The notes beneath the pieces are model-generated. The model had not been told where the DNA came from. It searched no databases and saw only the letters and a program-made list of their open reading frames with translations. From Bradyrhizobium sp. AZCC 2262 (lineage in GTDB: Bacteria; Pseudomonadota; Alphaproteobacteria; Rhizobiales; Xanthobacteraceae): a stretch of 64,000 nucleotides of DNA. The position numbers were made by a program, and so were the translations under genes. The stretch covers positions 6,324,001-6,388,000 of the forward strand of contig NZ_JAZHRT010000001.1 of NCBI RefSeq assembly GCF_036924535.1, in the 5' to 3' direction. Below, one piece after another: positions 8,288 to 16,582 of the stretch (position 1 is the first letter of the stretch; each line of letters starts with the position of its first letter).

Positions 8288-8474
8288 CGTTGAGAGAGTG
8301 CAGAGCGTTGCGGGTAAGTCGCTGCTTCGCACGAAGAAATTCGCCAAATCATGAACCTGGAGCCTCGGCACATCGCATTTGCACGAAACATCCAACGATT
8401 GCATTTGTCCTGATGACAAACTGAATACGCGGCAGTAGCCTGCCCCAAAATATAAAACACATGGGAGGAGTGGC

Positions 8475-11150
8475 ATGCCAGACGCAGCGGTCGCAGCACG
8501 TTCTTCTGAAACGACCAACAGCGGTGCAACGCAACAAGTTGACGTCGCGGTGGTCGGCGCCGGGTTTGCCGGCCTCTATCTCCTGCATAAGCTGCGCAAG
8601 GCCGGCTTCTCGGCTGTCGTGATCGAGGAGGCCGGCGACGTCGGCGGCACCTGGTACTGGAACCGCTATCCCGGCGCACGCTGCGACATCCAGACCATCG
8701 ACTACGGCTACACGTTCGATCCCGAACTCGATCGCGCCTGGACCTGGTCGGAAAAATACGCAACGCAACCGGAAATCCTGCGCTATTTCGGCTTCGTCGC
8801 CGATCGTTATGACCTCCGTCGCGACATCCGCTTCGGCACCAGGGTCAACGCCGCGAACTGGGATGCCACCAGCGAGCGCTGGCAGCTCGTCACCGATAAC
8901 GGCGCGAGCATTTCCTGCCGCCACTACATCATGGCGACCGGCTGCCTCTCCGCGCCAAAACCGCCGGAGATCGATGGCGTCAAGGATTTCAAGGGCGAGA
9001 TCTATTTCACCGGGCGCTGGCCGCATGATGGCGTCAATCTCGCAGGCAAGCGCGTCGCCGTGATCGGGACGGGATCATCGGGCATCCAGTCGATTCCGCT
9101 GATCGCGGAACAGGCGGCGCATCTCACCGTGTTCCAGCGCACGCCGAGTTTTGCGCTGCCCGCGCATAACGGTCCGGCGCCCGACGATCGCAAGACCTAC
9201 TTTGAGGCTGACCGCGCCGCCTATCGCGAGCAGGCGCGCTGGTCTCTCGCGGGCGTGCCGTATCCGCAGGAGATGGCGGTGAGCTGGCAACTGAGCGATG
9301 CCGAGCGCCGCGAGCGCTTCGAGAAAGCGTGGGCGGCCGGCGATCTCGTCCACATCCTGACCCAGCTCTGGGCCGACCAGGGCGTCGATTTCGACGGCAA
9401 CGCACTGATCGGCAAGTTGATTCACGAGAAGATCCGCGCGGTCGTGAAGGACCCCGAAACTGCCGCGGCACTGAGCCCGCATGACCATCCATTCGGCGCC
9501 AAGCGGCCGTGCCTCGATACCAACTACTACGCGACCTACAACCGTCCCAACGTCACGCTGGTGAATCTGCGGCAAGAGCCGATCAAGGCGATCACCGCCT
9601 CCGGCATCGCCACCGACAGGCGCAGCGTCGATGTCGACGTGATCGTGTTCGCGACCGGCTTCGACGCCATGACCGGCGCCATCAAGGCGGTGCATCCGAT
9701 TACGGGCCGCGATGGCAAATCGCTGTCCGACGTCTGGGCCGATGGCCCGCAGACCTATCTCGGGCTTACCGTGGCCGGCTTCCCCAATTTGTTCATGATC
9801 ACGGGCCCAGGCAGCCCCTCGGTGCTCTCAAACATGGCGGTCTCGATCGAGCAGCATGCCGACTGGGTGGTCGATCGCCTGGCGACGTTGCGCGACGCCG
9901 GCTTCACGACCATGGAAGCAACCGAAACCGCGCAGGCCGGCTGGGCGCAGCACATGGCCGACTGTTCGATGATCACGCTGCATCGGCTCGCCAACACCTG
10001 GTACACGGGCGCCAACGTTCCCGGCAAGGTGCAGGGCTTGATGCCCTACACGGGCGGCGTCGGCCCCTACCGCAGCATCTGCAACGAGGTCGTCGGACGC
10101 GGCATGCTCGGCTTCAAGCTGACCGGCCCCAACGTTGCCGGGCAATGCAACGATGGCGAGGTGGTTCGCTTGCAGCCGGATGTGCGGCTGGTGCTGGGCA
10201 TGCTGGCGGAGATGAACCTGCCGCAAATCGAGTCGCTGGGCGCGCAAGGCGCACGCGACTTCCTCACCGAATTCAACAAGGGCCGTCCCGCCGGCCGCCC
10301 GGTCGGCGAGGTCGGCAGCGGCGCGCTGCAAGGCGCCGAAGGCCCGCTGCCCTATCGCCTCTATCGGCCGGCAACGCCGGGACCGCACCCGATCGTGGTC
10401 TATTTCCACGGCGGCGGCTGGGTATTAGGTGATGAATTATCCGACGATCCGTTCTGCCGCGACCTCTGCCGCCGCAGCGGCATGATCGTGGTCAGCGTCG
10501 GCTACCGCCATGCGCCCGAGCATCGCTTCCCGGCGGCGGCCGAGGATGGCTATGCAGCGACGCGCTGGATCGCCGAGCATGCCGCTGACCTTGGCGGCAG
10601 GCCGGGACCGGTGCTGGTTGCAGGCTGGAGCGCCGGCGCCAACGTTGCCGCTGTCACCTGCCAGTTGGCGCGCGACCGCGGCGGTCCCCAGATTGCGGGC
10701 CAGCTCCTGGTATGCCCGGTCACCGATTGCCGGTTCGACCGTCCGTCCTACGCCGACAACGCGGTCGGCTATTTCCTGACGCGGGCGCTGATGTTCTGGT
10801 TCTGGGACATCTATTGTTCGCCCGCCGACCGCACCGACCCGCGCGCGTCGCCCCTGCGCGGCAATCTGGCGAACCTGCCCCCGGCGTTCGTTGCGACCTG
10901 CGAGTTCGACCCGCTGCGTGACGAGGGCATCGAATACGCCGAAGCGCTTGCTGCCGCCGGTGTCCCGGTCGAGCAACTGCAGGCGCGCGGCCACATCCAC
11001 TCATCCCTGGTGATGGTGGACGTGGTGATCACCGGCGTCAGCGGACGTGTGAAGATGGCGGAAGCGTTGCGCGGCTTTGCGGGTCTGCCCCGGAAATTGG
11101 AAGAGAGCGCGGACATCTCGCCGATCGCCGTGAACGCTGCCGCGGGATAG
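8475..11150 (+). CDS. fused Baeyer-Villiger-type flavin monooxygenase and alpha/beta hydrolase
   Basis: This 891-residue protein joins two enzymes. Residues about 20-545 form a flavin monooxygenase with an FAD loop (VVGAGFAG, 26-33), [15 protein letters not shown], a second nucleotide loop VIGTGSSG (196-203) and [11 protein letters not shown]. Residues about 610-875 form a hormone-sensitive-lipase-type hydrolase with oxyanion motif HGGGW (H645), nucleophile elbow GWSAG (S719), acid D812 in DPLRDE and H842 in GHIH. BVMOs convert ketones to esters with NADPH and O2, and the hydrolase half could cleave the ester product, so the chain may run two successive steps. The BVMO fingerprint is altered: it reads F172-x-G174-xxx-F178-xxx-W182-P, with Phe in place of the usual His. 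There is no signal peptide. The start ATG follows a GGAGGAG site. The substrate is unknown. Confidence 0.9.
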
Positions 11151-14749: not shown

Positions 14750-16414
14750 TTACTCCGCGGCGATCGCGGACCTTACAGATGCCCGCGCGTCTGCATCGAA
14801 CATGATGCCCTCATAGCCCTTCTGTGCAACGTCGGTGATGGCGGCAACGTATTTCGGCGTGCCGCCATTATAAACGAGATAGCGCGTCTTGCCGTGCTCG
14901 TGGCCGGGGATGTTGGAATTGTAGCCGGTGAACCACGACTTGGCTTTGCGCATCAGCATAATGGCGTACATCTTGGTTACATGCGCGGTCCAGCGCGCCT
15001 GCGCTTCGGGCGTTGGCTCCGCCCGCGTGTAGCCCCGGCGCCAGATGTGCTCGAGCAGGCCCATGCACCAGCCGACGCCGTTCTCGATGCCGCGCGGAAA
15101 ATTGGTGGAAGCCGAACCGCTCTGCGGCCCGGTCGGCATCAGCAGGTTCGGAAAACCGTGGACCATCATGCCGAGGAAGGTCGAGGGTCCGTCGCGCCAT
15201 TGGTCGGCCAGCTTGACCCCGCCGACGCCGGTGATGTCGATCGCATCGAATGAGCCGGTGATGGCATCGAAGCCGGTGGAATAGACGAGGATATCGAGCT
15301 CGTAATCGCGTGCGCTGGTGCGCAGGCCGGTCGGGGTCACCCGTTCGATCGGGGTCTCGCTGATGTCGACGAGATGTACATTGTAGCGGTTATAGGCCTC
15401 GAAATAATTGGTCTCCAGCGGCACCCGCTGCACGCCAAAGCCATGATCCCTGGGGATCAGCTTTTCCGCCGTCACCGGGTCCTTGACGCGCCGGCGGATG
15501 CGGCCGGCGATGTAGGCGGAAAATTCGGCGTTGGCCGCCTCATCGGTAAAGATCTCGCGAAAGTTGCTCAGCCAGATGCCGAAGCCGGGCTCGTCATAGA
15601 GCTTGTCCCACAGCGCGATCCGCTCCTCGGCCGTAACCTCGTAAAAGCCGCGCCGGTCCGGCTCATGCTCGAAGCCGCCGGGCGTGCGGGTGCAGGCGGC
15701 AAAGATGTCTTCGTAGCGCGCGCGGATGTCGGCCATCTCCTCGTCGGAGATCGGGCTGTTGTTGAGCGGCGCGCTCCAGTTCGGACGCCGCTGAAACACC
15801 GTGAGTTCACCCACCTTGTCCGCGATCTCGCCGATCACCTGGATCGCGGTGGCGCCGGTGCCGATGATGCCGACCCTCTTGCCGGCCAGCTCGACCGGCT
15901 CGTGCGGCCAATGAAACGTGTGGAACGAGCGCCCCTTGAACGCGTCCATGCCTTGCAGCCGCGGCAGCGTCGGTATCGCCAGCAACCCGACCGTTAGAAT
16001 GACGAACCGGCAGGTCAGCTCAAAGCCGTCGTCGAGTCTGAGCCGCCACAGATGATTTGCTTCGTCGAAGACCGCCGCCGCCACCCTGCGGTTGAACCGC
16101 ATGTATTTGCGCAGGTCGAACTTTTCGGCGACGTAGTTGAGGTAGCGGAGGTTTTCCGGCTGCGCCGAAAACCGCTCCTTCCAGTGCCACTCGTTGAGCA
16201 GCTCTTTCGAGAAGGAATAGCCGTAGGTGTAGCTCTCGGAATCGAAACGCGCGCCCGGATAGCGGTTCCAGTACCAGGTTCCACCGAGGTCGGGGGCGGC
16301 ATCCAACACCAGCGCATCCACCGCGAGATCGGCCAGCCGCTTGATCTGGTAAATGCCCGACACGCCCGCGCCAACGACGACGACCTCGTAATGCGACTTG
16401 ATGTCCCCGGTCAT
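14750..16414 (-). CDS. Baeyer-Villiger-type flavin-containing monooxygenase
   Basis: This 554-residue class B flavoprotein has an FAD loop VVVVGAGVSG (11-20), [18 protein letters not shown], the canonical fingerprint F159-x-G161-xxx-H165-xxx-W169-P170, an NADPH loop GIIGTGATA (182-190), and LVYSTGFDAITGSFD. The length and motif set match cyclohexanone/cyclopentadecanone-type BVMOs, which use NADPH and O2 to insert oxygen next to a ketone in the cytoplasm. ATG 16414 fits the start of the conserved beta strand. The frame is open further upstream without a good start signal. Unlike the fused enzyme at 8475, the catalytic-switch His is intact and no hydrolase follows. The substrate is not inferable. 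Confidence 0.92.
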   Translation of the reverse strand: MTGDIKSHYEVVVVGAGVSGIYQIKRLADLAVDALVLDAAPDLGGTWYWNRYPGARFDSESYTYGYSFSKELLNEWHWKERFSAQPENLRYLNYVAEKFDLRKYMRFNRRVAAAVFDEANHLWRLRLDDGFELTCRFVILTVGLLAIPTLPRLQGMDAFKGRSFHTFHWPHEPVELAGKRVGIIGTGATAIQVIGEIADKVGELTVFQRRPNWSAPLNNSPISDEEMADIRARYEDIFAACTRTPGGFEHEPDRRGFYEVTAEERIALWDKLYDEPGFGIWLSNFREIFTDEAANAEFSAYIAGRIRRRVKDPVTAEKLIPRDHGFGVQRVPLETNYFEAYNRYNVHLVDISETPIERVTPTGLRTSARDYELDILVYSTGFDAITGSFDAIDITGVGGVKLADQWRDGPSTFLGMMVHGFPNLLMPTGPQSGSASTNFPRGIENGVGWCMGLLEHIWRRGYTRAEPTPEAQARWTAHVTKMYAIMLMRKAKSWFTGYNSNIPGHEHGKTRYLVYNGGTPKYVAAITDVAQKGYEGIMFDADARASVRSAIAAE

Positions 16415-16582
16415 GCGCGGCTTCCCCGTTGTTGTTTCTTGGACGATTTGGCGCAGTCGGGTTCGACTATACCGAATTATTCGCGCCATGCACTTGCGTC
16501 AGGATGCCGGTGGGCCTGCGGAAACGGGCGCTCAAACATTGTTTGAAAAGCGGCGCGTGTTGTCGCCTCCCCGCTAGCTGCT

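Follow-up and report, generated by a model that had tools for sequence, protein, structure and literature searches.

A BVMO-like half and an HSL-type hydrolase fused in a single chain in Bradyrhizobium: a probable two-step ketone-cleaving protein

The window analysed here, a 64,000-nucleotide stretch of the genome of Bradyrhizobium sp. AZCC 2262, encodes in a single open frame (8475..11150, + strand; 891 residues plus stop) an N-terminal half related to Baeyer-Villiger monooxygenases (BVMOs) and a C-terminal serine hydrolase of the hormone-sensitive-lipase type (HSL-type). We put at roughly 0.6 the probability that the fused protein is a two-step catalyst that converts a ketone via an ester into an acid and an alcohol. 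The fusion is conserved and recurrent; ketone oxidation followed by cleavage of the resulting ester is its most likely chemistry, an order of activities that we infer together with any local hand-over of the ester. In the proposed mechanism, the N-terminal FAD/NADPH half would insert oxygen beside the ketone via Asp71 and Arg344, yielding an ester or lactone. The C-terminal hydrolase (Ser719, Asp812, His842) would then split this ester, and the ketone would leave as acid plus alcohol. By analogy with the nearest solved structures, we infer bulky or aryl ketones as the probable substrate class.

Rereading of the open frame returned exactly the coordinates, the 891-residue length and the uninterrupted frame that an earlier sequence-only reading of the window had given. 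The gene is likewise a single open frame in most of its orthologues, and a ribosome-binding site, GGGAGGAG (8463..8470, +), precedes the ATG at 8475. The BVMO-like half (residues 20-550, 8532..10124) and the hydrolase half (residues 562-870, 10158..11084, Abhydrolase_3), both on the + strand, were delimited by Pfam, alignment and structural match; the linker (residues 551-561, 10125..10157, +) is the gap between the two structural matches. In a Pfam search of the 891-residue protein, Pyr_redox_2, Pyr_redox_3 and FMO-like all scored above their cut-offs within residues 23-227. The AlphaFold2 model (pLDDT 89.7, pTM 0.86) superposes on the whole of phenylacetone monooxygenase (PAMO) and the whole of the esterase Est8, at 1.6 Å each, and thus predicts two whole folds within a single chain.

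The N-terminal half of the predicted structure has the BVMO fold. Motif reading confirmed the previously claimed FAD loop GAGFAG (residues 28-33, 8556..8573, +), whose glycines are conserved among BVMO domains, and NADPH loop GTGSSG (residues 198-203, 9066..9083, +). The first type I fingerprint, [A/G]GxWxxxx[F/Y]P[G/M]xxxD as printed in the available text of PMC4498894, is present at residues 57-71 (8643..8687, +) and includes Asp71 (PAMO D66). Alignment to PAMO also places the catalytic Arg344 (9504..9506, +; PAMO R337), so that both the catalytic Asp and Arg of type I BVMOs are in place; the Arg344 position is invariant in 430/430 distinct BVMO domains and the Asp71 position is kept in nearly all. 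The second fingerprint, FxGxxxHxxxW[P/D], is altered at residues 172-183 (8988..9023, +), where the alignment puts Phe178 (9006-9008) opposite PAMO H173. The full BVMO motif set claimed by the sequence-only reading is therefore not there, and because the second fingerprint is broken we call this half BVMO-like and keep it out of the full type I BVMO class. The profile of neopentalenolactone D synthase PtlE (NF045818) scored 307.5 bits, below its curated cut-off of 1100. Two further proteins of this kind occur in the same genome. A second, standalone BVMO of 579 aa (14750-16489, - strand) lies in the same window at 3.6 kb from the fused gene; it has the histidine in its fingerprint (FKGRSFHTFHWP) and is a natural control. 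An 851-residue FMO/BVMO-like protein (L097:6492-9047, -) has no Pfam match in its first 350 residues.

The hydrolase half matches Abhydrolase_3 at residues 641-843 (E 1.7e-74; 250.5 bits against a curated cut-off of 25). It holds the HGGG oxyanion loop, the GxSxG elbow and the Ser-Asp-His triad of HSL-type hydrolases, and motif reading and alignment of fused hydrolase halves bear out the residues named before: the loop HGGGW (residues 645-649, 10407..10421), the nucleophile Ser719 (10629..10631) in GWSAG (717-721), Asp812 (10908..10910) and His842 (10998..11000), all on the + strand. Each of the three triad residues is kept in 279/280 hydrolase halves of fusions with the BVMO first. The elbow position 718 is Trp in 164 of these 280, Asp in all 75 fusions of opposite order, and Asp or Glu in 73 rows of other hydrolases. 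The LipP1 profile (NF058653) scored 331.3 bits, under its curated cut-off of 350.

The fusion was found (E = 0 match) in 126 of 146 genomes of the genus and is absent from 20. In 121 of the 126 carriers the match runs stop-free at least as far as residue 871, and in five (G053, G045, G016, G041 and G071) it is shorter. The hydrolase half is damaged in G053 (L091:9242-11689, +; frame break near residue 783) and in G045 (L090:5960-10960, -; no match after residue 695), and in G016 the fusion is spread over two contigs. One genome, G137, holds two copies (L084 and L085), 84% and 83% identical to that of the window. Wider samples yielded the fusion in 16/248 genomes at the family level (15 of the genus, among them G053 with its damaged hydrolase half, plus G901 from another genus) and in 9/297 at the order level, all of the genus; at the class level, 5/289 genomes matched over both halves, three of them with one or two stops counted inside. 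A query with the hydrolase half was run against 60 relatives, 36 of them genus genomes. In these 36, intact halves were never seen as separate genes, and every hydrolase match above 50% identity sits inside a fused frame, with the two-contig G016 as exception; the fusion-less genus genomes G012, G015, G020 and G031 gave zero such matches. Median dN/dS was 0.141 for the BVMO half and 0.125 for the hydrolase half (38/38 orthologues tried), 0.105 for residues 549-565 spanning the linker (38 orthologues) and 0.198 for the tail (37 pairs); in a subset of 21/38 orthologues the two halves gave 0.140 and 0.137, respectively. The fusion is maintained and both halves are equally constrained.

A search for the genomic spread of this domain order had been proposed by the sequence-only reading; beyond the 126/146 genus genomes, fusions of the two domains, in this order and in reverse, also occur elsewhere. 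Among proteins of similar total length, the hydrolase half matched 2749 of 7996 scored candidates at E ≤ 0.001, and the best 120 of these 2749 (121 with the query) were taken to analyse the window's type. A BVMO stretch of at least 420 residues lies ahead of the hydrolase in 113/121 of the query and the matches listed. A second type with the same order shows 38-44% identity over the aligned set and carries names such as Zavarzinia, Nevskia, Panacagrimonas, Pseudonocardia, Nocardia, Streptomyces and Bradyrhizobium, among others; 112 of its 118 new identifiers among the matches listed are BVMO-first fusions. In a third type, with names including Henriciella, Hyphomonas and Pyruvatibacter, the hydrolase comes first. 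This type accounts for 71 of the 120 matches listed; the remaining 49 are mostly proteins of ~600-660 residues for which no BVMO domain is listed, and the three that were examined (P0131, P0159 and P0163; 619-654 residues) hold two tandem Abhydrolase_3 domains. The opposite order was read directly as single frames at L095:6533-9202 (+) and L096:6250-8871 (+); the model of this type is weaker (pLDDT 85.2, pTM 0.72).

A BVMO tree was built from 88 domains, each representing one cluster at 70% identity. It groups the window's type with opposite-order fusions and standalone BVMOs in a supported set of 17 rows and gives the second same-order type a 30-member clade of its own. A single clade of all fused hydrolase halves was rejected (AU p = 0.0006; 44/53 rows, six fragments and three long rows being left out). 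On this sequence evidence the fusion probably arose at least twice, and more events are possible. One clade for both same-order types was not rejected by AU testing (p = 0.442 for the BVMO half and 0.16 for the hydrolase half), and the inter-domain gap is similar in the two (median 11 and 8 residues); we therefore do not claim three origins. A common origin of these two types is possible and would lower the number of independent fusion events.

In BVMOs the fingerprint histidine has a role in catalysis or in domain motion. It was counted over 430 distinct BVMO domains, after exclusion of 63/359 listed proteins in which the BVMO stretch was too short, and is present in 38/259 BVMO-first, 16/73 hydrolase-first and 78/98 standalone domains; most standalone rows stem from a search with one protein of the L099-L108 type as query, and this set may be biased. 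The 113 of 121 window-type proteins that hold the stretch have 110 Phe, two Leu and one Tyr, with His in none, and Phe occupies the position in 39/39 genes of the dN/dS set. By clusters, the histidine is missing from 35/41 fused versus 7/47 standalone (Fisher p 1.8e-11, ignoring kinship), so that by cluster counts its loss correlates strongly with fusion; on the tree this comparison comes down to only four independent pairs, with a median p of 0.5. The loss also reaches beyond fusions, because Val or Leu stands in its place in ten standalone BVMOs of Caulobacter, Phenylobacterium and their relatives (L099-L108).

The window and 15 other loci, with neighbour tables for five, revealed no operon partner common across clades that would name a pathway. 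The window's neighbours recur in near relatives only (L079, L080, L081, L091 and L098), and the tables of other clades have just the fused gene in common with the window, besides 30-40% matches of paralogues; the neighbourhood thus gives no pathway clue. None of 80 standalone BVMO loci is fused, and at four of them a hydrolase of this type lies no more than ~3.5 kb away (many contigs being short), directly upstream of the BVMO in two of the four (L130 and L163). On a Chloroflexi contig (L130:3-2975, +), the hydrolase gene ends 66 bases before the same-strand BVMO gene, a pair that resembles an unfused form of the opposite-order fusion.

We favour the two-step catalyst on four grounds: the two catalytic sets are both retained, with equal constraint on the halves; the hydrolase half was met in the sampled genomes of the genus only as part of the fusion; fusion has joined the pair in either order, with two or more origins likely; and separate enzymes are known for these two steps (in the available text of PMC12724174 and PMC9836352). 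The lack of a common neighbour that could supply a missing partner in the clades compared also counts in its favour; the replaced fingerprint histidine, the damaged hydrolase halves of G053 and G045, the possible common origin of the same-order types and the missing pathway clue count against it. The fused ketone-to-acid-plus-alcohol reading offered from the sequence alone thus stands as the best supported, with catalytic sets kept and a recurrent fusion, yet it had missed the absent histidine, which leaves the monooxygenase step on less sure ground than first assumed. That absence, in all 113 window-type proteins and far more often in fused than in standalone clusters, is what speaks for a flavin half of changed function, which would oxygenate N or S or mainly produce hydrogen peroxide and leave the protein primarily an esterase carrying a redox module. 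We consider this unlikely, since Arg344 never varies, Asp71 hardly does, the BVMO half is constrained as strongly as the hydrolase half and some standalone relatives also lack the histidine.

It is also rather improbable that both halves work on separate substrates, with the fusion tying their expression or place and the hydrolase acting on other esters. HSL-type esterases are often broad, and the absence of pathway genes near the loci compared would suit such an arrangement; the occurrence of both fusion orders, with at least two likely origins, speaks more for a shared reaction path than for a chance pairing. A sequencing or annotation artefact is next to impossible: the same frame, without internal stops, continues over the junction to residue 871 or beyond in 121/146 genus genomes, as the sequence-only reading had it for the window, which rules out a frameshift or assembly artefact, and the linker itself is constrained (median dN/dS as given above). 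Returning to the two-step catalyst, we advance a bolder and doubtful extension: bacteria may repeatedly have built single-chain BVMO-esterase ketone cleavers, in both orders, that pass the ester internally and in which the fingerprint histidine is dispensable, perhaps since removal of the product by the fused hydrolase loosens control over the catalytic cycle.

If the two-step reading is right, the protein would form a natural cascade, within one chain, that leads from a ketone to an acid and an alcohol and whose steps are in print as separate enzymes, and an enzyme of 126/146 sampled genus genomes would gain a testable role. The fused group also bears on the need for the histidine by which type I BVMOs are recognised. 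In its available text, the survey of PMC4498894 accepted BVMOs by both fingerprints and would thereby have missed the window's group.

The solved structures nearest to the N-terminal half are PAMO and steroid monooxygenase (type I BVMOs; PDB 1w4x and 4ap3), which share with it the whole fold, the cofactor loops, the first fingerprint and the catalytic Asp and Arg, at ~49% identity in superposition. These are single-domain proteins with the fingerprint histidine, whereas the window protein has Phe178 and a fused hydrolase. Similarly, the HSL-type esterases Est8 and EST2 (PDB 4ypv and 1evq) share the whole fold, the HGGG loop and the triad with the hydrolase half (44% identity over 309 residues for Est8), but stand alone and have the elbow GDSAG instead of GWSAG. 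According to the available text of PMC12724174, the BVMO BpfC of Sphingobium yanoikuyae DN12 turns a ketone into an ester, which the alpha/beta hydrolase BpfD splits; these are the same two steps as proposed here, carried out by two separate proteins. In Sphingobium sp. AntQ-1, a type I BVMO gene is clustered with a lactone hydrolase gene and successive action has been proposed (available text of PMC9836352); these pairs are neighbouring genes, in contrast to the fused gene described here, and 'BVMO-hydrolase' in that text denotes gene clusters. No natural BVMO-hydrolase fusion was found in the literature searched, with most subscription journals outside its scope. This agrees with the sequence-only remark that the two are met as neighbours and not as a commonly described fusion, but the protein family is common in sequence databases. 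BVMOs and hydrolases are known as neighbouring genes or successive enzymes.
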